Assembly (NCBI RefSeq): GCF_016900045.1 | Contig: NZ_JACSNP010000006.1 | Location: 62,001 to 126,000, forward strand | Source of the DNA: Fusobacterium mortiferum | GTDB taxonomy: Bacteria > Fusobacteriota > Fusobacteriia > Fusobacteriales > Fusobacteriaceae | Reading direction: 5' to 3' | Length of the DNA stretch: 64,000 bases | In this document: in pieces, positions 3,921 to 51,185 of the stretch | Numbering within the stretch: position 1 is the stretch's first letter | Layout: each line of letters opens with the position of its first letter | Translations under genes and position numbers: made by a program | Notes under the pieces: model-generated | Database searches by the model: none | The model's input: only the letters and a program-made list of their open reading frames with translations | Told to the model about the DNA's origin: nothing

Positions 3921-5171
3921 ATGATAAAATTATATGAAAAATGGATTAAAATTAGTTTAATAAAGAGAATACTGGTTGGTATGGTAATAGGAATATTTCT
4001 TGCTATAGTAGCTCCACAAAAAGCTAGTGGAATTGTAATATTTGGAGATTTATTTGTAAGTGCTTTAAAAGCTATTGCTCCAGTACTTGTTTTTTTCTTG
4101 GTTATAGCTGCTGTTGTTCAGCATAAGAAAGGACAAAAGACAAATATGCAATCAATAATAGTGTTATATTTACTAGGAACATTTTTAGCAGCTGTTGTAG
4201 CTGTTATAGGAAGTTTTATTTTTCCGGTAGATCTTATATTAAAAGCCAGTGAGAGTAGTATAGCTCCTCCTGGAAATATAGTTGGAGTACTAGAAGGATT
4301 ACTAATGAACTTAGTAGATAATCCAGTAAATGCTCTTATTAAAGGAAATTATATAGGAATTCTTTTCTGGAGTATTCTTTTTGGATTTTTCTTGAGAGAG
4401 GGAAATGAAAATACGAAGAGTGTTGTAATTGATATATCAGAGGTTATTTTAAAAGTTGTAAAAACTGTAATTGAGTGTGCTCCAATAGGTATTATGGGAC
4501 TTATATTTAATTCATTAAGTACTAATGGATTAGCTAGTTTATTGGCATATGGAAAGTTAATTTTATTATTACTTGGATGTATGGCTTTCGTAGCCTTTGT
4601 TGTAAATCCTCTTATAGTTTGGGTTATGATTAGACAAAATCCATATCCATTAACATTGAAATGTTTAAAATATAGTGGAGTTACAGCTTTTTTTACAAGA
4701 AGTTCTGCGGCTAATATACCAGTAAACATGAGTTTATGTGAAGAATTAGGTTTAGATAAAGATGTATATTCAGTTTCAATTCCTTTAGGAGCAACAATAA
4801 ATATGGCAGGAGCAGCTATTACAATATCGGTATTTGCTCTAAGTGCAGCTCATACTTTGGGAGTACAAGTGGATATATTTCCGGCAATATTATTAAGTAT
4901 ATTATCAGCTATAAGTGCTTGTGGAGCTTCTGGAGTAGCTGGAGGGTCATTACTTCTTATTCCATTAGCATGTAGTCTATTTGGTATCTCTAATGATATA
5001 GCAATGCAAGTTGTTGGAGTAGGATTTATAATAGGAGTTATTCAAGACTCTTGTGAAACTGCACTTAACTCATCTACAGATGTTTTATTTACAAGTATTG
5101 CAGAATATGCTAACTGGAGAAAAGAGGGAAGAAAGATATCATTTTCAAGGGTTGAAAATGTAGCTAAATAA
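3921..5171 (+). CDS. sstT: serine/threonine:sodium symporter SstT
   Basis: Imports serine and threonine with sodium across the inner membrane. The 416-residue protein has the SstT-type N-terminus ([15 protein letters not shown]), the hairpin [12 protein letters not shown], the sodium-site motif ATINMAG (in place of NMDGT of glutamate carriers), and the [17 protein letters not shown] hairpin 2. It is distinct from the DAACS gene just before it, sharing only the fold. It has its own promoter and terminator, so it is monocistronic. GAGGAGAGG supports the ATG at 3921. Confidence 0.93.
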
Positions 5172-5186
5172 AAGCTAATAAAATAA

Positions 5187-5235
5187 CAAAGAGGTTATTA
5201 TAAGTGGGAACTTGTAATAACCTCTTAATAATTTT
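5187..5235 (+). terminator. terminator after sstT
   Basis: Twelve-base perfect arms at 5189-5200 and 5215-5226, with a short internal pairing, then a mixed T/A-rich tail. Confidence 0.75.
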
Positions 5236-5254
5236 ATTTAAAGTTAAATTTAAC

Positions 5255-5283
5255 TTTACTTTATAAAATAAGTGTGATATATT
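5255..5283 (+). promoter_or_regulatory. promoter of the ATP-grasp/esterase operon
   Basis: TTTACT at 5255-5260, 17-bp spacer, TATATT at 5278-5283 preceded by TGA, an extended -10. It lies 46 bp before the first start codon. Confidence 0.65.
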
Positions 5284-5329
5284 GTATCTTAATAACTAAA
5301 TATTCATAAACATAATAGGGAGGGATTTT

Positions 5330-6520
5330 ATGAATTTTATTTTTATTTCACCAAATTTTCCAAAAAGTTATTGGAACTTTTGTAGAGGATTAAAAAATAA
5401 TGGAGTTAATACTTTAGGAATAGGAGATGCAGAATATGACTTTTTAAGTGATGAGTTAAAAAGTTCGTTGAATGAGTATTATAAAGTATCTTCATTAGAA
5501 AATTACGATGAGGTGTATAGAGCCTGTGCTTACTTTGCGTTTAAATATGGAAAGATAGATTGGTTAGAGTCAAATAACGAGTATTGGTTACTACGTGATG
5601 CACAACTACGTACAGACTTTAATATTACTTCAGGATTAAGAAATGATAAAATTGCTGGAATAAAATACAAGAGCAAAATGAAGGAATTTTATAAGAAGGC
5701 TGGAGTAAAAACAGCTAGATACCATTTAGTAACAACTTTTGAAGAGGGGAAAAAGTTTATAAAATCAGTGGGATTTCCAGTAGTTGTTAAGCCAGATAAT
5801 GGGGTAGGGGCAGCAGCTACTTATAAATTAAAAAATGAAGAAGAGATGAAATTTTTCTATGATAATTTAGGAGAAGAACAGTATATCATGGAAGAGTTTG
5901 TAAATGGTGAGTTACTCTCTTATGATGGAATAGCTGGAAGAGATAAAGAAATTATATTTGAAACAGCTCATGTATATCCAGTACCAATAATGGATATAGT
6001 AAATAATGGAATGGATGTAATGTATTACTCATATAGAGAGATTCCAGAAGATTTAAAAGAAGCTGGAAGAAAAGTTGTTCAAACTTTTGATACTAATAGT
6101 AGATTTTTCCATTGTGAATTTTTTAGGTTACTTGAAGATAAGCCAGGATTAGGGAAAAAAGGGGATATTATAGGTTTAGAAGTGAATATGCGTCCACCTG
6201 GAGGATATACACCAGATATGATGAACTATGCTAATGATATAGATGTATATCAAATTTGGGCAAATATGGTAACATATAATGAGGGGTATTTTGATAAAGA
6301 ATCAAGACCTTATTGTTGTGTATATGCAGCTAGAAGAGATGGTTACAATTATGCCCACAGTATAGATGTTGTATTGAGTAAATATGGACATAATATTGTA
6401 ATGAAAGAGAGAATGCCAGAGGTATTATCTGGAGCTATGGGAAATGATATGTTGACAGCTAGATTTCCAGAGCAAGATCAAGCAATAGAGTTTATTGATT
6501 TTTACTTAAAAAAAATGTAA
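5330..6520 (+). CDS. ATP-grasp ligase of unknown substrate
   Basis: The 396-residue protein has an ATP-grasp domain of the carboxylate-amine/thiol ligase superfamily. The N-terminal 110 residues form a pre-ATP-grasp domain beginning with FIFISPNFPKSYWNF. The central part carries VVKPDNGVGAAATYKL (nucleotide-binding loop), then YIMEEFVNGELLSYDG, and GLEVNMRPPGGYTPD supplies the metal-binding Glu/Asn. Such enzymes make an acyl-phosphate and join it to an amine or similar nucleophile; the substrates here cannot be named from sequence. It is the first gene of a three-gene operon with two esterases, 16 bases before the next start. GGGAGGG precedes the ATG. The family call is firm, the pathway unknown. 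Confidence 0.85.
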   Translation: MNFIFISPNFPKSYWNFCRGLKNNGVNTLGIGDAEYDFLSDELKSSLNEYYKVSSLENYDEVYRACAYFAFKYGKIDWLESNNEYWLLRDAQLRTDFNITSGLRNDKIAGIKYKSKMKEFYKKAGVKTARYHLVTTFEEGKKFIKSVGFPVVVKPDNGVGAAATYKLKNEEEMKFFYDNLGEEQYIMEEFVNGELLSYDGIAGRDKEIIFETAHVYPVPIMDIVNNGMDVMYYSYREIPEDLKEAGRKVVQTFDTNSRFFHCEFFRLLEDKPGLGKKGDIIGLEVNMRPPGGYTPDMMNYANDIDVYQIWANMVTYNEGYFDKESRPYCCVYAARRDGYNYAHSIDVVLSKYGHNIVMKERMPEVLSGAMGNDMLTARFPEQDQAIEFIDFYLKKM

Positions 6521-7298: not shown

Positions 7299-8057
7299 AT
7301 GGTATTAAAAGAGAGAATATATATAGAACCGTTCAATCTTCATAGAATGCTTCACATATATTTACCAGATGACATTCAACCAAATGAAAAATTTCCGGTA
7401 ATATATATGTTTGATGGACATAATCTGTTCTACGATTCAGATGCTACATATGGAAAATCATGGGGGATAAAAGAGGTATTAGATAATCATAAACAAAGAG
7501 TTATAATTGTTGGATTGGAATGTAATCATGAAGGAAATATGAGGTTATGTGAATTTTCTCCGTATTCTTTTAATGATAAGATTTTTGGAGAGGTAACAGG
7601 ACTAGGAAAGATTACTATAGAGTGGATTTGTAATGTATTAAAGCCATATATAGATGAAAAATTTCCTACAAAACCGGAAAGAGAGTATACAGCTTTAGGT
7701 GGTAGTTCAATGGGAGGACTGATGTCTGTATATGGATTAGCGGCAAGATCAGATATATTCTCAATGGGAATATGTATATCTCCTTTTTATGATCATATTT
7801 TTAAAAAGTTAGTAGATGATATTTCAAAGTTTAAAATTCATAAGAAAACAAAGGCTTATATAAGTTGGGGAAATCATGAATTTCATACCAAAAAGCAATT
7901 AGCAGTAGGAACTGAAAAAAATATGATAGTTACAAGAATATTTTCTCAAAAAGGAGTAACAGTATTTCCACATATGATGGTTGATGGAGCTCATAATGAG
8001 GAGTCTTGGGAAAAAGAAACATTAACATGGTTATATGAGCTAGGATTGTATAAATAA
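7299..8057 (+). CDS. esterase-family alpha/beta hydrolase (second of pair)
   Basis: A 252-residue putative esterase of the same broad family. It has FPVIYMFDGHN in the N-terminal half, the nucleophile elbow GGSSMGG with Ser near residue 137, and a C-terminal DGAHNEESW whose His near residue 232 is the expected catalytic histidine. This is the classic pattern of the PF00756 esterases, including enterochelin esterase and antigen 85 relatives. No signal peptide. It starts nine bases after the first esterase, with GGAG in the gap, and ends at a strong terminator. Function within the cassette is unknown; hydrolysis of an ester or thioester formed downstream of the ATP-grasp ligase is one inference. 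Confidence 0.82.
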   Translation: MVLKERIYIEPFNLHRMLHIYLPDDIQPNEKFPVIYMFDGHNLFYDSDATYGKSWGIKEVLDNHKQRVIIVGLECNHEGNMRLCEFSPYSFNDKIFGEVTGLGKITIEWICNVLKPYIDEKFPTKPEREYTALGGSSMGGLMSVYGLAARSDIFSMGICISPFYDHIFKKLVDDISKFKIHKKTKAYISWGNHEFHTKKQLAVGTEKNMIVTRIFSQKGVTVFPHMMVDGAHNEESWEKETLTWLYELGLYK

Positions 8058-8089
8058 GCTAACAAAAAAGATGGAATAAGAAATTAAAA

Positions 8090-8150
8090 TAATTCAAGAA
8101 TGACTTATATTCAAAGAAAAGAGAATTTTGTCATTCTTGAATTTTATTTT
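8090..8150. terminator. bidirectional terminator between convergent genes
   Basis: Fourteen-base perfect arms at 8091-8104 and 8130-8143, with TTATTTTT after the right arm. It separates the plus-strand esterase operon from the minus-strand DUF554 gene. Confidence 0.85.
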
Positions 8151-8166
8151 TAGCTAATTTTCAAAT

Positions 8167-8847
8167 TTATATAAATCTTTTAATTAGAAAAAATAGAATA
8201 GGAACTAGTAAAGCTGGAAAAAGATTTAAAGTTTTTATATTTTTAATTTTTAATACTCCAAGTCCTGTTGCAACAATTAAAAAACCACCAACAATACAAA
8301 GCTCCACTATTAGTTCTTCACTAAAGAAATCTAGGCAAATATATTTAGTAAGGAAGTAGATACTTCCTTGCCAACAAAATAGAATAAGTGCTACAATAAT
8401 TAATCCTATTCCATAGGTAGAAGAGAATATTACAGAACCTACAAAGTCTAAAGAAGCATTAGTAAATAAAAATGTATAATCACTTTTTAAGGCTGCCATT
8501 ACAGATCCGACTATAGAAAGAGAGCCTATACAGAAAAGAAGAGCCGCTGTTACAATTCCCTCTCCAAGATTTCCCTTAGCATATTTTTTTATAAGAGTTT
8601 GTATTTTATCATCTAAATCAAATTTTGTTCCTATTACAGATCCAATAACTAAACTGACAATAAAAAGCACCGGATATCCACTTTTATTCATATTTGATAT
8701 GACTGAGCTAAATCCAATACCACAAGCAGCTAAACCACAAGCATTTAACATAGCTTCTTCATATTTTTGAGGGATCCCTTTTTTTATAAATCCCCCTATT
8801 AAGCAACCAGCTATTATAGCTAAAGTATTAACAATTGTTCCGAACAT
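8167..8847 (-). CDS. DUF554 family membrane protein (YdfK/YqgA-like)
   Basis: A 226-residue integral membrane protein with about seven hydrophobic helices. The N-terminus GTIVNTLAIIAGCLIGGFIKKGIP and the segment ACGIGFSSVI match the DUF554 family, possible transporters of unknown substrate. It is transcribed alone on the minus strand, with AAGGAG before the ATG at 8847. No function can be assigned with confidence. Confidence 0.85.
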   Translation of the reverse strand: MFGTIVNTLAIIAGCLIGGFIKKGIPQKYEEAMLNACGLAACGIGFSSVISNMNKSGYPVLFIVSLVIGSVIGTKFDLDDKIQTLIKKYAKGNLGEGIVTAALLFCIGSLSIVGSVMAALKSDYTFLFTNASLDFVGSVIFSSTYGIGLIIVALILFCWQGSIYFLTKYICLDFFSEELIVELCIVGGFLIVATGLGVLKIKNIKTLNLFPALLVPILFFLIKRFI

Positions 8848-8958
8848 ATTTTATAACTCCTTATATATTTGATAGTAAAAGTTTTAAAAAATCAGACATC
8901 TTATTATTTTAAATTTTTACATTATAAGTTATACTACAGAATAGAAAAAATTTCTAGA

Positions 8959-8999
8959 AATATTTTAGCTTTAAAGATAGCAAGCTAAATTAAAATATT
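8959..8999. repeat. AT-rich inverted repeat in the divergent spacer
   Basis: AATATTTTAGCTT near 8959-8971 is complementary to AAGCTAAATTAAAATATT near 8982-8999 apart from a short bulge. It lies between two divergent genes (starts at 8847 and 9076). It could be a hairpin or an operator; no strong promoter could be fixed nearby. Confidence 0.4.
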
Positions 9000-9075
9000 C
9001 TCAAAAGTTGTTTTTTATGGTATAAATTATATATTGATAATATTTAGATTTTATAGTCTTAGAAGGGAAAAATAG

Positions 9076-9855
9076 ATGAAAATTTCGATACTTGGAAGTG
9101 GAAGTGGAGGAAATGCCACATACATAGAGAGTGAAAATGGAAAAATTTTAATTGATGCAGGATTTAGTTGTAAAAAAATCGAGGAGAGATTAAATTCTAT
9201 TCAAAGAGAACTTTCGGATATAAATGGAATTTTAATTACCCATGAGCATATTGACCATATACAGGGAGCTGGAATTATATCAAGAAAATATAATATACCA
9301 ATCTATATTACTCAGGAGAGTTTTAAAGCTGGAGAGGCTAAGCTTGGAAAGATTTCCACCGAAAATTTAAAAATTATAGATAATAAGAAATTTATAATAA
9401 ATGATAGTTTGCTGATAAAGCCCTTTGATGTGATGCATGACGCTCAAAGAACAGTAGGTTATAGGATTGAGTCTCAAAATGGAAAAATAGCTGCTATATC
9501 TACAGATATAGGGTATGTAAATAATATAGTGAGAGAAAACTTTAAAGAGGCAGATATAATGGTAATAGAGAGTAATTATGATTATAATATGCTTATGAAT
9601 TGTAGTTATCCTTGGGATTTAAAGGCTAGAGTTAAAAGTAGAAATGGGCATTTATCAAATAATGAAGCAGCTAAATTTATTAAAGAGATGTATAATGAAA
9701 AATTGAAAAAGATATATTTAGCTCATATAAGTAAGGATAGTAATAATCCGGATATTGTAAGAGATACTGTAGCTCAGGAGTTAAGAGCTAATAGAATAAG
9801 AGTAGAGTACGAATTAGCTAGACAGGATATGGCTACTGAATTATTCGAATTATAG
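9076..9855 (+). CDS. MBL-fold metallo-hydrolase, WalJ/YycJ-like
   Basis: A 259-residue cytoplasmic metallo-beta-lactamase-fold protein. It opens with SILGSGSGGNATYIE, has the metal-binding THEHIDH at residues 55-61, a second metal ligand region in MHDAQRTVGY, an Asp in STDIGY, and LAHIS near the end. This is the pattern of WalJ/YycJ, a likely 5'-3' DNA exonuclease linked in Firmicutes to replication and cell-wall coordination; here no walRK genes are adjacent. AGAAGGG precedes the ATG. The next gene starts 11 bases downstream, so it heads a three-gene unit with the UDG-like gene and the folate gene. Confidence 0.85.
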   Translation: MKISILGSGSGGNATYIESENGKILIDAGFSCKKIEERLNSIQRELSDINGILITHEHIDHIQGAGIISRKYNIPIYITQESFKAGEAKLGKISTENLKIIDNKKFIINDSLLIKPFDVMHDAQRTVGYRIESQNGKIAAISTDIGYVNNIVRENFKEADIMVIESNYDYNMLMNCSYPWDLKARVKSRNGHLSNNEAAKFIKEMYNEKLKKIYLAHISKDSNNPDIVRDTVAQELRANRIRVEYELARQDMATELFEL

Positions 9856-41774: not shown

Positions 41775-41907
41775 TATGTAATTTTCAGCTCAGTTAAAAG
41801 AAAACTAAGAATTGTTCCGTATTTTAAGAAATAGATTAGTTAGAGATTTTAAATCTAAAAATTTTTTGAGTTAATATCTAAATAAGTTATCATATATGAG
41901 TTGGAAA

Positions 41908-41960
41908 AATAAAAACTAGTAGGAAGTAGCTTTATAACTACTTTTTACTAGTTTTTTATT
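41908..41960 (+). terminator. terminator downstream of the flavodoxin gene
   Basis: AAAAACTAGTA at 41911-41921 pairs with TACTAGTTTTT at 41946-41956, with GAAGTAG/CTACTTTT inner pairing, then TTTATTTT. It is 130 bases past the stop; nothing coding was seen between 41775 and 41907. Confidence 0.8.
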
Positions 41961-42042
41961 TTATTTAAGTCAAACTACTATAATAAGTATATTAGGTTCT
42001 TTGTCAAATGGTGTTGGTAAAAAATAAATAAATTTTATATGG

Positions 42043-42063
42043 CTCCAGTGGGTTACACTGGAG
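42043..42063 (-). terminator. hairpin directly after the transposase stop
   Basis: CTCCAGTG at 42043-42050 and CACTGGAG at 42056-42063 are perfect 8-base arms lying just behind the TAA of the transposase remnant on the minus strand. Confidence 0.55.
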
Positions 42064-42556
42064 TTATTTAGTTACCAATAATTTATTAGCTATTAAAATT
42101 CTTGCTCTGAAGTGATAAAAACTTTTATAACCATAAGCACTTCTTTTTAATGTCTTTATTTTTCTATTGATTCCTTCTATTAATCCATTATTATAGTTAT
42201 AATTTAAACTATTTTCAATATACTCTAAATATTTTTTAAATGTTTTTAATGAAGTTTTCATCAAAACATAAAGCTTCTGGTAAAAAATATTTGCTAGGTA
42301 AATGCTCTTTGAAAAAAGAGTTAATAATTCGATTGACTGTATTAGAGGAAACGTTAAAATTAGAAGCAATATCTTTTTCAGAAATATTTTTCTGTAATTC
42401 AAGAGTAATAGCTAATTTAATATCATTAGAAATACAGCAAAATTTATTAACAAAAGTAGTTTCTGCGATGAAAGACTTAGAGCAATTTTTACGAAGTAAA
42501 GAAATATTTTTATCTTTAATATTTAAAAGATTTATGATAGAATGTATTTGAGACAA
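42064..42556 (-). pseudogene. ISL3-family transposase remnant
   Basis: The minus strand encodes the N-terminal part (from TTG at 42556; a Cys-rich start, then an HTH region NISEKDIASNFNVSSNTVNR, ending LPEALCFDEN at 42236) and, in another frame, a C-terminal part ending GLIEGINRKIKTLKR..AYGYKSFYHFR.. and TAA at 42064. In ISL3 transposases some 250 residues of DDE catalytic domain separate these parts; here they meet at about 42250 with a frame change. This is an internal deletion plus frameshift. AAGGAGG precedes the TTG start. Confidence 0.75.
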
Positions 42557-42620
42557 GTAAATGACCTCCTTAGATTAGTGTGTGGTAACTTTAATTTTAG
42601 TAGAAAAATTTACTTGTCTC
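42550..42620 (-). repeat. inverted repeat that can mask the transposase start codon
   Basis: GAGACAAGTAAAT at 42550-42562 and its exact complement at 42608-42620 (13 bp). On the minus-strand transcript the second arm contains the TTG start of the transposase, so pairing would hide it. Confidence 0.6.
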
Positions 42621-42785
42621 ACTATTTTTTTTGGTAAAAAGTAAAAAAGGTGTTAATACCTAAATATCTATAGGTACCAACACCAAAAATTATACACCCA
42701 TTATTTTTTTATAAAACTTGATTACTGTTAATATAAAAATTAAATACTTATTTTAAAATATTATAGTAATTGATTAACTTTGGAT

Positions 42786-42832
42786 AAAAAAAGGTTATTA
42801 TAAACTAATAAAAAATATTAATTTATAATAAG
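42786..42832 (-). terminator. terminator of nagB
   Basis: TTATTATAAA at 42794-42803 and TTTATAATAA at 42821-42830 are perfect arms; on the minus strand they are followed by CCTTTTTTT. The rest of 42700-42785 is AT-rich without visible features. Confidence 0.7.
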
Positions 42833-42870
42833 CAAAAATTTAGGAAAAAGTTCTTTTATTTTTTTAATAA

Positions 42871-43689
42871 TTATTTATAAAGTTGATTAATTAATTTTAT
42901 AGAATTTAAATTATTCTTTTCAATATCTTTAAAATATCTATATGTAGAAACTTTAAGCTCTCCACAAGCACTTTCATCAGCAACAATAATCCCTTTTTTA
43001 TGAAGTTGTAAAGCTGATACGGTACACATATGATTTACTCCTTCTTCAATAGCTTTATGTAGTGCTAAAGCTTTATTAGCTGAGTCAACCATTATTAATA
43101 CTTCTTCAGAATCAAGTACAGTTTGAACACCAACTGTTAGAGCTTCTTTAGGAACTTTATTAATATCATTTTCAAAAAATCTAGAGTTTGCAATAATTGT
43201 TTCAGTTGTTAATTCCTTAACTCTTGTTCTTGAGCTTAAAGATGATCCAGGCTCATTAAAAGCTAAATGACCATCCGATCCTATACCACCAACAAAAAGT
43301 TTTATACCACCAAATTTTTTTATTTTATCTTCATAATTTTTACATTCTTCGACTAAGTCTTCAGCTAATCCATTGAGAATATTTATATTTTCCTTTTTTA
43401 TATCTACATGATTAAAAAAGTTTTCAAACATATATGTATAATAACTTTGTGAATCATTTTCTCCTAACCCAACGTATTCATCCATATTAAATGTAATTAC
43501 ATTTTTAAAAGATAGAACTCCATCTTTATAAAATTGAATTAATCTTTTATACATATCTGTTGGCGTACTTCCAGTAGGTAAACCTAGAACAAATGGTTTT
43601 TCTTCAGTAGGTTCAAATTCTAATATTTTTTTTGCAACATAATAAGCTGCCCAATCTCCAATTTTTCCTTCAGGAATAATAACTCTCAT
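42871..43689 (-). CDS. nagB: glucosamine-6-phosphate deaminase
   Basis: Converts glucosamine-6-phosphate to fructose-6-phosphate and ammonia, feeding amino sugars into glycolysis. The 272-residue protein has [13 protein letters not shown] near residue 39, the catalytic [32 protein letters not shown] (Asp, His and Glu of the active site), and [19 protein letters not shown]. The length is normal for the hexameric type. AGGAGG precedes the ATG at 43689. It is transcribed away from the mannitol operon. Confidence 0.95.
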
Positions 43690-43812
43690 AGATACCTCCT
43701 AGATAAATTTGAATTATAATATATTGATATATTACAATTTATGAAACAAAAATTCAAAGTTAAAATATTTCAAATTTAATTGAAATAAATAATTTGATTT
43801 TTTTTATAAAAG

Positions 43813-43865
43813 TATAGTAAAATAATTGTAAATGTTTTTTTATAGTTCGAAATATATAAAAAAAC
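43813..43865 (+). promoter_or_regulatory. leader element B, upstream of the mannitol region
   Basis: Second copy of the element at 41062. The inverted repeat is perfect here: arms 43834-43844 and 43855-43865 (11 bp) around GTTCGAAATA. TAAAAT at 43818-43823 is a possible -10, and TTGATT at 43794-43799 a -35 with 18-bp spacing. Confidence 0.65.
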
Positions 43866-43894
43866 AAACTTAAAAAATGTTGTGGTGAGTATAA

Positions 43895-45544
43895 GTGAAT
43901 TTAAAAATATATAAATTAACAAATTTTTTCCAAAATATTATAGTAAAAAATATGTTTTTTTTCATATCTTTGGGAATATTTAAAATTTTAAGTTTAAAAT
44001 GGAATATATGTTCAGATATAATAGATATTTTAATGAAGTATATTATACCAGTTGCGATAGCTTACACAACGGGGAACATAATTGAAAAAAAATATGGAGC
44101 AATAGCTTCTGTGTTAGCAACAACAATATTTTTAGTACAAAATGATTCGAGTGATATTTTAACAATAATTTTTCTTTCAAGTATTTCTAGTGGAATTATA
44201 AAAAGTATGAAGAAAAAAATTTTTTTAAAATATTTTTCGGAATTTGAAATGATAATATTTAATATATTTCTTCCTTTAGTAATAGTTTTAAGTAGTTTTA
44301 TATTAGGTGATATCTATAGAATTTTTAATATATATCTTCAGATATTTTTTAAAACTCTTTTAAAATTTAGTGAAAAAATCGTATTTATTTTTTTTATAAC
44401 TCCAATAATAGAAATATCAAAAGTATTTTTTTTGAATAATTTAGTTAATCATGGTTTTTTATTTTTTTTAGGATATGAAGAATTAATAATTAAAGGGAAA
44501 TCAATATTTTTTTTATTAGAAACAAATCCGGGTCCAGGGTTAGGAGTTTTATTAGCATACTTTATTACAAAAAAAGAAAGAAAGGGGATTTTAAGTAGTA
44601 TAGTTTTAGAATTTATAGGTGGTATTCATGAATTTTATTTTCCGTATGTATTAAAAAATATCAAGTTACTTATTCCTTTAATAATTAGTGCACTTATAAG
44701 TAATTTAATTTTTTATTTCTTTGATGTAGCTTTATATACTCTACCATCACCAGGAAGTTTTTTAGTTATTTTACTTTTTGCTAAGTCAAAAATTTCAATT
44801 TTAATACTAGGAATTTTACTGTCTACCTTTATATCGTTTATTATCTCACTTTATATTTTAAAAGATGAATTTCAAGAGGAAGAAAAAATAAATTTAAATA
44901 AAACAATTTGGAATAGAGAAGTAAAGAAAATAGGAGTTATATGCACAGGTGGTATGGGAACAAGTGTGATAGGTAAAAATTATTTACTACTAGAGATAAA
45001 AAAGCAAGATTTAAAAATAGAGGTTGAAAATTATAATTTATTAGATTTGGATAATAATGTAGATATTATACTAACACATAAAAATTTAGAAAAAAAAGTA
45101 CGGGAATTATATCCAGAAAAAAAAGTTGTTATAGTTGAAAATTATCTAGATAAAAATTTTTATAAATCTATTTTGGAGGACTATGTAAGGTATTATAAGG
45201 ATTATTCTATGGAAAATAAGAAGATTCAAGTGGAATTGAATCAAAAAAGATTAAATATATCAGATGAGGAGCTGGAGAAATTCTTTATATTACGAAAAAG
45301 AATAGGAGTAATAGAGAATGAAAGTGAAGAAAATAAAATAACAATAAAACATTATCCTTATGGTGTAAAACATAAAGGAGAAGAGGTTGTAGTTTTGGTA
45401 ATATTGTCCCTTATAAAAGAAAAAAGAGATAAAATAAAAGAGATTTTAACAAATTTAGAAGAAAGAGTTATAGAAGATATAGAGTTGAGTGATACAGAAG
45501 AGGAGATTATTCAACTATTTAAATTAGAAAGTTTGGAGGATTAA
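43895..45544 (+). CDS. degenerate mannitol-type PTS permease paralogue, putative sensor
   Basis: A 549-residue membrane protein clearly homologous to the MtlA encoded 4 kb downstream, but decayed. The EIIC part keeps NHGFLFFLGYEEL, ETNPGPGLGVLLAY (211-217 core) and GGIHEFYFPYV (242-246 core). The N-terminal PNIGAFIAWG motif of MtlA is lost. The EIIB part keeps a Cys (350) in VICTGGMGTS. The C-terminal part resembles the end of EIIA but lacks the segment with the phospho-His (IPHG). It cannot complete the usual phosphotransfer alone. It is first in an operon with mtlR, three bases before it, which suggests a regulatory or sensing role. GTG start with GGTGAG upstream. Confidence 0.75.
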   Translation: MNLKIYKLTNFFQNIIVKNMFFFISLGIFKILSLKWNICSDIIDILMKYIIPVAIAYTTGNIIEKKYGAIASVLATTIFLVQNDSSDILTIIFLSSISSGIIKSMKKKIFLKYFSEFEMIIFNIFLPLVIVLSSFILGDIYRIFNIYLQIFFKTLLKFSEKIVFIFFITPIIEISKVFFLNNLVNHGFLFFLGYEELIIKGKSIFFLLETNPGPGLGVLLAYFITKKERKGILSSIVLEFIGGIHEFYFPYVLKNIKLLIPLIISALISNLIFYFFDVALYTLPSPGSFLVILLFAKSKISILILGILLSTFISFIISLYILKDEFQEEEKINLNKTIWNREVKKIGVICTGGMGTSVIGKNYLLLEIKKQDLKIEVENYNLLDLDNNVDIILTHKNLEKKVRELYPEKKVVIVENYLDKNFYKSILEDYVRYYKDYSMENKKIQVELNQKRLNISDEELEKFFILRKRIGVIENESEENKITIKHYPYGVKHKGEEVVVLVILSLIKEKRDKIKEILTNLEERVIEDIELSDTEEEIIQLFKLESLED

Positions 45545-45546
45545 AA

Positions 45547-47646
45547 GTGTTAAATAAAAGATGTATAGAAATTATAGAGTATCTTAGAATGAACGATTAT
45601 TCTTTTCTTTTAAAGGAGTTAGCCGAAAAGTTTGGTGTAAGTGAAAGAAGTATTAGATATGATATAGAAAATATAAATTACTATTTGAACAAATTTAATT
45701 TAAAAGAGATAGAAAAATCGTCTAAAGGGTTATACTCTCTAAAAGAAGAAGATAAAAAAATAAAAGAGCTATTAGAAAGTATGTCACAAAGATTTTATGT
45801 ATTTACTGGAGAAGAGAGAAGGGAGTATGTAGAGGAGAAATTTTTATTTTTTAAAGAGAATAGATTGATAGATTTTGTTGAAACATTAGATGTTAGTTTA
45901 AGTACAGTAAAGATTGATTTGAGAGAGGTTAAGATATTTTTTATAGAAAATGGATTAAACTTAAATTTTTATTCAAAACAGGGAATTAGATTGGAAGGTA
46001 ACGAGGAAAAATTAAGAATGTTGCAATTAAAATTTCTAAATAAATATTTAGAGATAAATAGTGAGGATATTTTAGTTGCTAAAAAACAAGATTCAAAAAA
46101 TTATCTTAATAATATTATTTTCTCTGATTTAAAAGATATTTATCAAGATATCAATTTAAAAAATATATATAGATTTGTTAAAAGAGTTGAAAAAAAATTA
46201 AATACAATAATATCAGATGAAGCTTTTATAATTTTGAGACTTTATTTAATGATTATGTTAAATAGAATAACTCAAGGAGAAAAGCTATCTCCAAGAGAGA
46301 TGAATAAAAAGTTCCTTATGAATACTAAAGAGTTTGAGATAATAAGTAAGGAGTTAGAGTTTTTAGAAGAGATACTTGAATTAAAAATAGAAGAAAATGA
46401 GATTTTATTATTAACAGAGTTATTTTTAGGAGCTCACTCTTATAATTTTAATTCATCTTTTTTTGAGAATTGGATAGAATTAGAGATTTTAGTAAATAAA
46501 TTGATAAAAGAGATAAGTGAAGTAATAAATATAAATTTAACACAGGATAAAGCTTTAATAGATGGACTTTTAAATCATTTAAAACCAGCTTATTATAGAA
46601 TTAGAAATAATATAAGTTTTGAGAATAAAGTTTACAAAGAGATTGAAGATTTATATGGAGAGTTATATCAGAAGGTAGAGAAAGTAAGTAGAAAGTATTT
46701 AGAAAAATATATAAATAAGGAAATTCCAGAAGAGGAGATTGCTTATTTAACTATTCATTTTAAAACAGCTATTGATAGAAAAGTAAACTCTCAAAGAAAA
46801 ACTAAAAATATAATTATTGTCTGTGGATTAGGTTATGGAAGTTCAAAATTATTGGCACAAAAATTATTAGAGAAATATGATGTAAATATTATAGATACTC
46901 TACCATATCATAAATTTTTGGAAATAGAATATTATGAAGATGTTGATTTTATAATAACCACATTGGAGATAGAGGAAAAGTTAGAATATAGTTTTCCTAT
47001 AATAAAGGTACATCCAATTTTAACAAAAGAGGACAAAATGTTGTTAGAAAGATATGGATTAAGTGAAAATCAAAGAAAGATATCATTAAATCAATTGCTA
47101 AATATAATAAGAGAAGAAACTGATATCTTTAATGAGAAAGAGTTGGTAAAAAAATTAAAGAATATTTTAAAATATAAATATATAGATGACTTAGAAAAAG
47201 ATAAAATTTATAATTTATCTGAATTATTGCCTCTAGATAATATAAAAAAGGTAGATAAAGTTAAGGATTGGAGAGAGGCAATAAGAATTTCTGGTTCATC
47301 ATTAAAAAATGCTGGTTTTATAAAGGAAGAGTATATAGAAGAGATGATAAAAAATGTAGAGCAAAATGGTAGCTATATGGTAGTAAATGATATAGTAGCT
47401 CTTCCACATGCAAGAACAGAAAATTTAGTAAATAAAACTGGAATGAGTTTATTAGTGATAAAAAATAAAGTTATTTTTCCGGATAATAAAAAAGTGAAGT
47501 TAGTATTAAGTTTTTCGAGCTTTGATCAGAAAGAACATATAGATGCATTAACTAAATTTGTAACTTTACTTGAAAATAAAGAGTTTATAAGAAATGTAGA
47601 AAAGTTAGATGAGATTAAAATAAAAGAGATAATAGATAAATATTAA
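45547..47646 (+). CDS. mtlR: mannitol operon activator MtlR (BglG-type with PTS domains)
   Basis: A 699-residue transcriptional regulator controlled by PTS phosphorylation. Order: DeoR-like helix-turn-helix (LAEKFGVSERSIRYDI, 25-40), a second HTH near 112-128 (VETLDVSLSTVKIDLREV), two PRD domains with candidate His at about 344 and 404, an EIIB-like domain with Cys426 (IIIVCGLGYGSSK), and an EIIA-like domain with His621 (IVALPHARTEN). This is the MtlR architecture of Firmicutes and relatives. It uses GTG at 45547, with GGAGG upstream. It most likely activates mtlA and mtlD, whose promoter lies 170 bp downstream of its end. Confidence 0.9.
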   Translation: MLNKRCIEIIEYLRMNDYSFLLKELAEKFGVSERSIRYDIENINYYLNKFNLKEIEKSSKGLYSLKEEDKKIKELLESMSQRFYVFTGEERREYVEEKFLFFKENRLIDFVETLDVSLSTVKIDLREVKIFFIENGLNLNFYSKQGIRLEGNEEKLRMLQLKFLNKYLEINSEDILVAKKQDSKNYLNNIIFSDLKDIYQDINLKNIYRFVKRVEKKLNTIISDEAFIILRLYLMIMLNRITQGEKLSPREMNKKFLMNTKEFEIISKELEFLEEILELKIEENEILLLTELFLGAHSYNFNSSFFENWIELEILVNKLIKEISEVININLTQDKALIDGLLNHLKPAYYRIRNNISFENKVYKEIEDLYGELYQKVEKVSRKYLEKYINKEIPEEEIAYLTIHFKTAIDRKVNSQRKTKNIIIVCGLGYGSSKLLAQKLLEKYDVNIIDTLPYHKFLEIEYYEDVDFIITTLEIEEKLEYSFPIIKVHPILTKEDKMLLERYGLSENQRKISLNQLLNIIREETDIFNEKELVKKLKNILKYKYIDDLEKDKIYNLSELLPLDNIKKVDKVKDWREAIRISGSSLKNAGFIKEEYIEEMIKNVEQNGSYMVVNDIVALPHARTENLVNKTGMSLLVIKNKVIFPDNKKVKLVLSFSSFDQKEHIDALTKFVTLLENKEFIRNVEKLDEIKIKEIIDKY

Positions 47647-47653
47647 GAAAAAA

Positions 47654-47691
47654 AGAGGACTGTTGATAAATTGTAACAGTCTTTTTTTTTC
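47654..47691 (+). terminator. terminator after mtlR
   Basis: GACTGTT at 47658-47664 pairs with AACAGTC at 47675-47681, followed by ten Ts. Confidence 0.85.
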
Positions 47692-47765
47692 AAAAAAATT
47701 AGAAAAAAAATATTTCTTAACTTTTTGAAAAACCAATCATCACTTTTTATTGAAATGTTTGATAT

Positions 47766-47794
47766 TTGAATTATATGTTTTGAAAATATATAAT
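47766..47794 (+). promoter_or_regulatory. promoter of mtlAD
   Basis: TTGAAT at 47766-47771, 17-bp spacer, TATAAT at 47789-47794. The 70 bp of AT-rich sequence upstream to the terminator would hold the MtlR-binding site, but no repeat could be fixed there. Confidence 0.7.
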
Positions 47795-47823
47795 AAACAT
47801 ATAAAAAGTATGGAGGTTTGAAA

Positions 47824-49686
47824 ATGGATAATAAAAAAGATTTAAAAATTATCGTTCAAAGTTTTGGTAGATTTTTAAGTGGAATGGTAATGCCAAATAT
47901 AGGTGCTTTTATTGCATGGGGAATAGCAACGGCATTATTTATACCAACAGGATGGATACCTAATGAAAAATTAGGAGAACTAATATCTCCAATGTTGACA
48001 TATCTTTTACCACTATTAATAGGATACAGTGGTGGAAAATTAGTAGCAGGAGAACGTGGTGGAGTAATAGGAGCCATTACAACAGCAGGGGTTATTGTAG
48101 GGACAACAATTCCAATGTTTATAGGGGCTATGATAGCTGGACCATTTGGAGGATATGTAATAAAGAAGTTTGATAAGTTAATAAGTGGAAGAGTAAAATC
48201 AGGATTTGAGATGTTAGTTAATAACTTCTCTATAGGGATAATTGGAATAATATTAGCAATTTTCTTTTTTAAAGCAGTTGGACCACTTGTTGAGATAGCA
48301 AATACAGTTTTAGGAAATGGAGTTAATAAGTTAGTAAGTTTAGGATTATTACCTTTAACATCTATTTTAGTAGAGCCAGCAAAAATTTTATTTTTAAATA
48401 ATGCAATAAATCATGGAGTTTTTTCTCCATTAGGAATACAACAAGTTTCAGAGACAGGAAAATCTTTATTCTTTTTAATTGAAGCAAATCCAGGACCAGG
48501 ATTGGGAATATTACTAGCATATATGTTCTTTGGTAAGGGGTCATCTAAGGAATCAGCTTCAGGAGCAGCCATAATTCATTTCTTTGGTGGAATACATGAG
48601 ATTTACTTCCCATATATTTTAATGAAACCTTTATTAATAGTAGCTGTTATTTTAGGAGGAATGTCAGGAGTTCTCGTTAATGTTCTTTTAAATTCAGGAT
48701 TAATAGCTCCACCATCACCAGGAAGTATTTTTGCAATAATGGCTTTAGCACCAAAAGGTGGATTATTAAAAGTTTTAGCAAGCATATTAGTAGCTACAGT
48801 TGTAACATTTATAGTAGCTTCGATCATTATAAAAAGTTCTAAAGATGATTTAGATTTAGAGGAAGCAAAGCAAAAAGTACAAGGAATGAAAAAGCCACAA
48901 TCTTTAAACCATGACTTAGGAAATCAAAAAATATCTACAATAGTTGTTGCTTGTGATGCTGGAATGGGATCAAGTGCTATGGGAGCTAGTGTACTAAGAA
49001 AAAAAGTAAAAGAAGCAAACTTAGATATAGAAGTAACAAATCGTTCAATATCAAACTTAACTGAAGATATAGATATTGTTATAACTCATAAAGATTTGAC
49101 ACCAAGAGCTAAAAAGATGGTTTCAAGACCAATTCATCTATCATTAAATAACTTTATGGATTCAGCTTTCTATGATAGCTTAGTAAATACATTAAAATCA
49201 AACGGTAATAAAGATAAAAAAGAAACGACAGAAAAAGTAGGAGAGGAGAAGAAAAATAAAGGTTTTGTACTAGATAAGAGTGCAATAATTTTAAACAAAA
49301 AGTCAGTAACTAAAGAGGAAGCTTTAAAAGAAGTTGGAGATTATATGAGTAAGTTAGGTTATGTAGGACCAAACTATAAAAACTATATCTTAGAAAGAGA
49401 GAAGGAATCAACTACCTATATAGGAAACTATGTAGCTATTCCTCATGGAACAGTAGAAGGAAAAAAAGAGATTTTAAATACAGGAATAGTAATTTTTCAA
49501 TATCCAAATGGAATTGATTTTGGAAATGGAAATATAGCTTATTTCTTAATCGGAATTGCAGCTAAAAATAATGAGCATATAGAGATTGTATCAAATATTT
49601 CAGATGTAATAGAGGAAGAAGAAGAAGTATTAAAACTAAAAGATGAACAAAATCTTGAAAAATTATATGAAATTTTTTCTTTTTAA
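47824..49686 (+). CDS. mtlA: mannitol-specific PTS transporter EIICBA
   Basis: Takes up mannitol and releases mannitol-1-phosphate inside. The 620-residue protein has the EIIC membrane domain (MVMPNIGAFIAWGIATALF; NPGPGLGILLAY; GGIHEIYFPY), the EIIB domain with phospho-Cys377 in VACDAGMGSSAMG, a charged linker near 460-480, and the EIIA domain with phospho-His541 in YVAIPHGTVEGK. All three domains are in one chain as in E. coli MtlA. ATG at 47824 has TGGAGG at 47811-47816; the TTG at 47818 lies too close. mtlD follows after 13 bases. Confidence 0.95.
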   Translation: MDNKKDLKIIVQSFGRFLSGMVMPNIGAFIAWGIATALFIPTGWIPNEKLGELISPMLTYLLPLLIGYSGGKLVAGERGGVIGAITTAGVIVGTTIPMFIGAMIAGPFGGYVIKKFDKLISGRVKSGFEMLVNNFSIGIIGIILAIFFFKAVGPLVEIANTVLGNGVNKLVSLGLLPLTSILVEPAKILFLNNAINHGVFSPLGIQQVSETGKSLFFLIEANPGPGLGILLAYMFFGKGSSKESASGAAIIHFFGGIHEIYFPYILMKPLLIVAVILGGMSGVLVNVLLNSGLIAPPSPGSIFAIMALAPKGGLLKVLASILVATVVTFIVASIIIKSSKDDLDLEEAKQKVQGMKKPQSLNHDLGNQKISTIVVACDAGMGSSAMGASVLRKKVKEANLDIEVTNRSISNLTEDIDIVITHKDLTPRAKKMVSRPIHLSLNNFMDSAFYDSLVNTLKSNGNKDKKETTEKVGEEKKNKGFVLDKSAIILNKKSVTKEEALKEVGDYMSKLGYVGPNYKNYILEREKESTTYIGNYVAIPHGTVEGKKEILNTGIVIFQYPNGIDFGNGNIAYFLIGIAAKNNEHIEIVSNISDVIEEEEEVLKLKDEQNLEKLYEIFSF

Positions 49687-49699
49687 GGAGGAGTAGAGA

Positions 49700-50857
49700 A
49701 TGAAAAAAGCTATACAATTTGGAGCAGGTAATATAGGGAGAGGATTTATTGGAGCAATTTTATCAGAGAATGGATATGAGGTTTGTTTTGCTGATATTAA
49801 TGAGATAATGATATCCGAGTTAAATAACAAGCAAGAGTATGTAGTAGAAGTTGTAGGTCAAAATTGTAATGAGATTACTATAAAAAATGTTTGTGGTGTT
49901 CTATCTAACAAAGATGAGATACTTGAAAAAATAAAAGAAGCTGAAATAGTAACAACAGCCGTAGGACCTGGAGTTCTAAAAATAATAGCTAAATCTTTAG
50001 CTCAAGGAATTGAGAAAAGAATGAATGAAGGAATAAAAGAATATTTAAATATCATAGCTTGTGAGAATATGATAAAAGGATCAACTGTATTAAAAGAAGA
50101 GGTTATGAAATATTTGTCAGAAGATGGTAAAAAATATATAGATTTATATGTAGGATTTCCAGATTCTGCAGTAGATAGAATAGTTCCTCCAGTAGAGAAA
50201 TGTAAAGATATTTTAAAAGTTAGAGTTGAAGAGTTTAATGAATGGATTGTTGATAAAACTCAATTTAAAGGAGAAGTTCCAGTAATAAATGGAATGATTC
50301 TAACAGATAATTTAATGGCTTTTGTTGAAAGAAAATTATTTACTTTAAATACAGGCCATGCAATTACAGCTTATTTAGGAGTATTAAAAGGATATAAAAC
50401 TATAAAGGAAAGTATTGAAGATATAGAAATAAGAAAAATTGTACTAGAAGCTATGCAAGAGAGTGGAGAAGTTTTAATTAATAGATATAGCTTTGATAGA
50501 AAAAAACATGAAAAATATATTCAAAAAATATTATCAAGATTTGAAAATCCATATTTAATTGATGAAGTTGTAAGAGTAGGAAGAGAGCCATTAAGAAAAT
50601 TAAGTTATAATGACAGATTAATAAAGCCATTAAGGGGAACTTTAGAATATAATACAAAAAATGAAAATTTATTATTAGGTATAGCGGCCGCATTGAGTTA
50701 TAGAAATAGTGAAGATATACAAGCTGTAGAATTAGAAAAAAGATTACAAAGTGAAGATATAAAAAGTGTTTTTGAAGATATAACAGGATTAAATAACAAT
50801 GAAATAGAAGAAAAAGTTATTAAAAATTATTTGGAAATAAGAGAGCTGATTAAGTAA
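49700..50857 (+). CDS. mtlD: mannitol-1-phosphate 5-dehydrogenase
   Basis: Oxidises mannitol-1-phosphate to fructose-6-phosphate with NAD. The 385-residue protein has AIQFGAGNIGRGFIG at the N-terminus, the TAVGPGVLKIIAKSLA region, CENMIKGSTVLKEEV, FPDSAVDRIVPP, and the catalytic Lys/Asn/His region around LNTGHAITAYLGVLKGYKT. Length and motifs match MtlD. AAGGAGGAG precedes the ATG. It closes the mannitol operon. Confidence 0.96.
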   Translation: MKKAIQFGAGNIGRGFIGAILSENGYEVCFADINEIMISELNNKQEYVVEVVGQNCNEITIKNVCGVLSNKDEILEKIKEAEIVTTAVGPGVLKIIAKSLAQGIEKRMNEGIKEYLNIIACENMIKGSTVLKEEVMKYLSEDGKKYIDLYVGFPDSAVDRIVPPVEKCKDILKVRVEEFNEWIVDKTQFKGEVPVINGMILTDNLMAFVERKLFTLNTGHAITAYLGVLKGYKTIKESIEDIEIRKIVLEAMQESGEVLINRYSFDRKKHEKYIQKILSRFENPYLIDEVVRVGREPLRKLSYNDRLIKPLRGTLEYNTKNENLLLGIAAALSYRNSEDIQAVELEKRLQSEDIKSVFEDITGLNNNEIEEKVIKNYLEIRELIK

Positions 50858-50888
50858 ATTAATTAGATAGAAGGGTATTAGAACAAAT

Positions 50889-50926
50889 TAAAAAGGACCG
50901 AAACTCACCTCGGTTCTTTTTAATTT
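50889..50926 (+). terminator. terminator after mtlAD
   Basis: AAAGGACCGA at 50892-50901 pairs with TCGGTTCTTT at 50910-50919 (one wobble), followed by TTTTAATTTT. Confidence 0.85.
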
Positions 50927-51185
50927 TAGAAATAAGTGATGGAAATATGAAATAAAAAAGTTATAAACATAAAAAAACTACAACTAAATAACATAAAAAT
51001 AACAATACTTAAGTATATACTTAAATCATAAGTAATTAATAAGAGTGCTAATCCTTATAATTATCTTAGCCAAAATTTAAAAGATGATAACATAGGTATT
51101 CTCCCAAAACACACACTATTTTATCATCTTTGAATGTAAATAACTGGGAACAGTTTATTATAAAAGGATACTAGGGGGTATTTTT
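50927..51185 (+). promoter_or_regulatory. porin leader region with palindrome and hairpin
   Basis: The gap before the porin is 328 bases including the mtl terminator and holds no gene. TTAAGTATATACTTAA at 51009-51024 is a perfect 16-bp palindrome. AAAGATGATA (51080-51089) pairs with TATCATCTTT (51122-51131) around a 32-base loop and is not followed by a T tract. Possible -10 boxes are TATAAT at 51056-51061 or TATTAT at 51156-51161, but no -35 is convincing. GGGGG precedes the start codon. A long, structured 5' leader seems likely. Confidence 0.5.

Follow-up and report, generated by a model that had tools for sequence, protein, structure and literature searches.

A mannitol permease paralogue coupled to mtlR in Fusobacterium mortiferum: a candidate sensor permease

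In Fusobacterium mortiferum, a gene resembling the mannitol permease gene mtlA lies directly ahead of the regulator gene mtlR, and a canonical mtlA lies further downstream. This arrangement raises the question of what the additional MtlA-like protein, here termed P, does at a locus that already has a mannitol transporter. The question was addressed in a window of 64,000 nucleotides, which is the whole stretch of DNA that was analysed and to which all positions refer.

The paralogue and its locus

P is an open reading frame of 549 amino acids with a GTG start and the sequence GGTGAG 5 nucleotides upstream. It is 28% identical to the window's MtlA over 484 aligned residues. The motifs of the EIIC substrate core (NNLVNHG, ETNPGPGLG, GGIHE, and PSPGS) are present, as is the EIIB phospho-cysteine Cys350, although the loop that carries it is altered in the window's clade of P (CTGGMGTS instead of CDAGMGSS). 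Three segments of MtlA are missing, namely MPNIGAFIAWG, the IPTGWxPNE loop, and PMFxGAMIAGP. In the EIIA region, the IPHG phospho-histidine segment is deleted and the flanking piece HYPYGV remains, which means that the domain is deleted in part and not absent as a whole. This motif comparison confirms a preliminary description of the locus, in which the substrate core and Cys350 were said to be kept and the EIIA phospho-histidine segment and the N-terminal EIIC motif to be lost. The same description placed P three bases before mtlR; the immediate upstream position holds, and the gap between the P stop codon and the GTG of mtlR is 2 nucleotides. Its term “degenerate” does not suit the family, since most orthologues of P are full EIICBA proteins.

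Pfam recognises the EIIB domain as the sole domain of P. Moreover, P fails the curated cut-offs of the MtlA models TIGR00851 and NF011663 (144.8 versus 468.4 and 194.3 versus 589), while the window's MtlA scores above both. The best full-length structural match is nevertheless E. coli MtlA (9a2w), and the EIIB domain matches 1vkr/1vrv. An AlphaFold model (mean pLDDT 69, pTM 0.47) supports the EIIC and EIIB folds and does not resolve the EIIA remnant (residues 440-522). P thus shares domain order and fold with E. coli MtlA (EIICBA-Mtl), and differs from it in having neither the EIIA histidine nor the N-terminal EIIC motifs.

Table 1. Features of the mtl locus, with positions in the window.
Feature	Position	Strand	Basis or remarks
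Second nagB copy, divergent from P, same accessory block	42871..43689	-	Neighbourhood comparison
ISL3 transposase remnant	42064-42556		
TTTC-N10-GAAA dyad, candidate MtlR operator, upstream of P-mtlR	43768..43785	+	Dyad scan
P, MtlA paralogue coupled to mtlR	43895..45544	+	EIIC, EIIB (Cys350), and EIIA remnant without phospho-His; 12 orthologues
mtlR, PRD-type activator	45547..47646	+	HTH, two PRDs, EIIB-like (Cys426) and EIIA-like (His621) domains
Intrinsic-terminator-like hairpin and T run, after mtlR	47658..47690	+	Fold z -4.8
Two TTTC-N10-GAAA dyads, upstream of mtlA	47688-47705, 47713-47730	+	25 bp apart
Promoter-like TTGAAT-17-TATAAT, ahead of mtlA	47766-47794		
mtlA, canonical mannitol EIICBA	47824..49686	+	Domain/model matches and motifs
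mtlD, mannitol-1-phosphate 5-dehydrogenase	49700..50857	+	Domain/model matches

The regulator has the full set of features of an MtlR-type PRD activator, with the HTH, the PRDs, the EIIB-like cysteine, and the EIIA-like histidine all present. Its two target residues are kept in 13 of 13 sequences, including the LAHG variant of genome G055, in which the histidine is still there. Between P-mtlR and mtlA, the terminator and promoter of the preliminary description are found as a hairpin with a T run and a promoter-like element (Table 1). The hairpin with its T run is unique within the window, and a simple terminator scanner did not list it.

In a second genome of this species, the match to the window stops at position 41868 and resumes at 50995, and the mtl genes in between find no match. 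The contigs of that genome end there at repeat, IS-like sequence, and neither P nor MtlA was found in it. The block nagB-P-mtlR-mtlA-mtlD (within 41869-50994) is therefore accessory in the species. A nagB gene also adjoins the locus in three other genomes with P (G076, G017, and G062), and glmS occupies that place in seven other P genomes. Genes of glucosamine-6-phosphate enzymes are recurrent neighbours of the mannitol genes.

Conservation of P with mtlR and a shared dyad

Orthologues were sought in 61 genomes of the family. P is present in 12 genomes (G000, which is the window's, G076, G017, G062, G025, G012, G034, G023, G077, G028, G016, and G022), at 32-50% identity to the window's P and with no frameshift or internal stop in any of them. 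In all 12, mtlR is the next gene, near or overlapping, and P without mtlR was never seen among the genomes examined. By comparison, the position of mtlA-mtlD varies: the pair follows mtlR in some P genomes and lies across a glmS gene in three (G034, G023, and G077), G062 has it in divergent orientation, and G022 and G016 carry it on separate contigs. Since mtlR always adjoins P while mtlA-mtlD moves, the conserved unit is P plus mtlR. A true mtlA exists besides P in the window and in most P-carrying relatives, and the fusobacterial relatives inspected have no additional catabolic gene next to P-mtlR. P is dispensable, as two genomes, G069 and G055, have mtlR without it; mtlR is there presumably under the control of MtlA. 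G069 stands next to G000 and G076 in the MtlR tree, which indicates that P was lost in G069.

The TM1 and PMFxGAM motifs are missing from every P with a readable N-terminus and present in 14 of 14 fusobacterial MtlA proteins compared. On this comparison, their loss is an ancestral mark of P. The EIIB cysteine and the NPGPGxG and GG(I/V)HE motifs are kept in all 12 orthologues. The EIIA histidine is kept in nine and lost in three related ones, by deletion of the segment in G076 and G000 and by PK in place of PH in G017; G062 has this histidine and lacks the second EIIA histidine. In addition, the YPYG motif of the EIIA remnant has Tyr directly after its proline in all P, where MtlA has N, D, or E, and thus even the EIIA remnant is not free to drift. 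Mean identity of P to MtlA within EIIC is 23% for the N-terminal half and 41% for the C-terminal half. The N-terminal half has therefore diverged most, while selection kept the substrate core and EIIB.

The preliminary description proposed conservation and selection in relatives as a check, and both are borne out by the open frames and by dN/dS. Among three close species, dN/dS is 0.12-0.13 for P, 0.04-0.12 for MtlA, and 0.03-0.04 for MtlR, which makes P the least constrained of the three, yet constrained. For the pair G000 and G076 they are about 0.35, 0.18, and 0.11, respectively, and with dS near or above 1 these figures are only indicative.

A TTTC-N10-GAAA dyad occurs upstream of P and of mtlA in 21 of 25 regions. 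Dinucleotide shuffles of these regions contain it in 0.7 regions on average (maximum 3), and among the remaining spacings between 6 and 15 none exceeds 3 regions. None of the 63 further intergenic regions at these loci contains the dyad, and it is also absent from the regions upstream of mtlR genes that lack P (G069 and G019). The tandem of two dyads 25 bp apart, found ahead of mtlA in the window, occurs once in the whole genome. The common dyad suggests that P-mtlR and mtlA belong to one regulon, and MtlR would be the protein that binds it. In the four nagB-linked genomes, the dyad is preceded at a distance of exactly 14 bp by a TCAA(A/G)GTT box (in the window, within 43690-43894). Read on the nagB strand, this box is similar to a GTTTGnACwTTGAA box that other genomes carry close to the mtlA promoter.

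A sensor reading and its alternatives

Two known systems bear on the function of P. In B. subtilis, SacX is an EIIA-less permease paralogue encoded in one bicistronic operon with the PRD regulator SacY, which it controls; SacX does not support growth and is phosphorylated by the EIIAs of other systems (PMC6148471). In the mannitol system of the same species, MtlA and MtlF phosphorylate the EIIB- and EIIA-like domains of MtlR and so hold the regulator inactive as long as mannitol is absent (PMC3217849); to be active, MtlR reportedly has to make contact at the membrane with MtlA's EIIB domain (PMC8560693).

P is probably a sensor permease of the SacX/SacY kind and the dedicated regulatory partner of MtlR. 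This reading draws on the invariable adjacency to mtlR, the purifying selection, the shared dyad, and the retention of the core and the EIIB cysteine. It also draws on MtlR, which keeps the cysteine and histidine sites that MtlA and MtlF target in B. subtilis (PMC3217849). The earlier proposal of a sensor that passes its phosphorylation state to MtlR is accordingly retained as the best-supported reading, resting on the bicistronic unit together with these features. Its further suggestion of a wholly new control arrangement does not stand, because SacX-SacY (PMC6148471) and the control of MtlR by MtlA in B. subtilis (PMC3217849, PMC8560693) precede it.

The likeness to SacX and SacY lies in the bicistronic arrangement with a PRD regulator, in the presence of a true permease besides P, and, only in the window's clade, in the combination of a kept EIIB cysteine with no EIIA of its own. 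However, SacX belongs to the beta-glucoside family and P to the mannitol family. P matches mannitol-family models and structures without homology to SacX, and therefore could resemble SacX in function only. SacY, moreover, is an RNA-binding antiterminator, whereas MtlR is a DNA-binding activator with EIIB- and EIIA-like domains of its own. The MtlA-MtlR system of B. subtilis has the same type of regulator and the same phosphorylation logic, but there the transporter itself acts on MtlR, while here a separate paralogue is tied to mtlR besides MtlA.

In the proposed mechanism, the conserved EIIC core of P would bind mannitol, and the phosphorylation state of Cys350 would convey this to the co-transcribed MtlR. 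When mannitol is absent, the EIIB domain of P would be phosphorylated, and the EIIB- and EIIA-like domains of MtlR would in turn be phosphorylated and the regulator inactive. When mannitol is present, the phosphoryl group would drain to the substrate, and dephosphorylated EIIB would stop phosphorylating MtlR, bind it at the membrane, or both. Active MtlR would then promote transcription of mtlA-mtlD and of its own P-mtlR operon via the dyads. For the P of the window's lineage, which has lost its own EIIA, the phosphoryl donor would have to be a foreign EIIA, and the EIIA of MtlA is the simplest candidate. Bulk transport by P would be weak or absent.

The main rival explanation casts P as an additional, accessory permease that is controlled by MtlR and borrows the EIIA of MtlA; its substrate would be mannitol, taken up with a different affinity, or some other polyol. 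Most orthologues are complete EIICBA proteins with histidine and cysteine intact and could therefore transport, and this speaks against the sensor reading. The altered EIIB loop in the window's clade and the dispensability of P also count against that reading. The substrate core and the EIIB cysteine are kept in all orthologues, the use of foreign EIIAs by EIIA-less permeases is common (PMC6148471), and some relatives in Bacillota point to transport (see below). Against this, the conserved partner of P is a regulator and not a dehydrogenase, the fusobacterial P-mtlR loci inspected have no catabolic gene, and N-terminal EIIC motifs that are invariant in the fusobacterial MtlA proteins are lost in all readable P. 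We consider an accessory permease conceivable but unlikely.

Alternatively, P might be a decaying duplicate of mtlA heading for loss. Its rapid divergence (the nearest orthologue is 50% identical, versus 80% for MtlA), the EIIA deletion, and the loss in G069 would fit, but the frames are open in all 12 orthologues, the cysteine and binding core are invariant, and dN/dS is low (about 0.12) in the close species, if higher between G000 and G076. Furthermore, forcing P together with fusobacterial MtlA is rejected (p-AU 0.0006), so that a recent duplication of the local or of a fusobacterial mtlA is rejected as its source, with the caution that branches are long. Decay is largely refuted on these grounds and very improbable. 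About as improbable is a non-transporting subunit that forms a heterodimer with MtlA and tunes its activity, in which case adjacency to mtlR would reflect co-regulation only. The N-terminal half of EIIC carries dimer contacts in other EIIC proteins and is the most diverged part of P, which favours such a role; the conserved neighbour of P, however, is mtlR and not mtlA.

Relatives in Bacillota and wider occurrence

A tree of EIIC plus EIIB places all P in one clade with mtlR-adjacent MtlA-like proteins of Lachnospiraceae, other Eubacteriales, and Paenibacillaceae (100/99). Fusibacter-type paralogues branch next (90/71), and a fuller quick tree also groups P with these relatives. In the MtlR tree, unlike the P tree, fusobacterial MtlR stands apart from that of Bacillota. 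Because the two trees disagree, one common source of the mtlR-paralogue pair for Fusobacteria and Bacillota was not accepted; given also the long branches, repeated specialisation (convergence) or long-branch attraction is an alternative to common descent.

The Lachnospiraceae type is like P in lying upstream of mtlR, lacking EIIA, and having lost the TM1 motif, while the Paenibacillus and Fusibacter paralogues differ from P in lying downstream of mtlR. No MtlA-family permease other than the related mtlR-adjacent EIICBA was found in Paenibacillus, which suggests that this protein transports there. The Lachnospiraceae and Fusibacter relatives adjoin 1-phosphofructokinase-like and Zn-type dehydrogenase genes instead of mtlD, hinting at another polyol in those loci.

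P may, tentatively, represent a widespread class of MtlA-derived sensors whose genes adjoin mtlR in Fusobacteria as well as several Bacillota, and in which the sugar-binding half was kept and the other half rebuilt for signalling. Having no EIIA of its own in the window's lineage, such a sensor would depend for phosphorylation on a foreign EIIA; the simplest source would be the true transporter, whose genes it helps to activate. A sensor permease beside a PRD regulator is known from SacX; what appears new is a mannitol-family version with MtlR, conserved through the family and perhaps beyond, which was not found in the open literature searched. The gradation of natural forms between complete EIICBA and EIIA-less protein may illustrate how a PTS permease becomes a dedicated sensor. 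In addition, the two-gene unit of P and MtlR with its predicted operator offers a test bed for how PRD activators read the state of a permease. For annotation, it means that adjacency to mtlR is no proof that an MtlA-like gene encodes the transporter.

Several further arrangements around mtlR were observed in Bacillota. An EIIA-less second MtlA-like gene lies directly upstream of mtlR in loci of Eubacteriales, Paenibacillaceae, and Lachnospiraceae (L120:9521-11047, L128:9446-10774, L133:9401-10816, and L138:9422-10864), and the L133 locus ends with 1-phosphofructokinase-like and Zn-dehydrogenase genes. In eight Clostridia (L069, L072, L073, L083, L089, L091, L093, and L115) the gene order is EIICB, mtlR, EIICBA, so that the regulator is flanked by two MtlA-family proteins. 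Finally, in Thermohalobacter (L067), nearly identical MtlA copies flank mtlR (4143-5555 and 7914-9806), one with EIIA and one without; their branch lengths are near 0, perhaps due to recent duplication or conversion.
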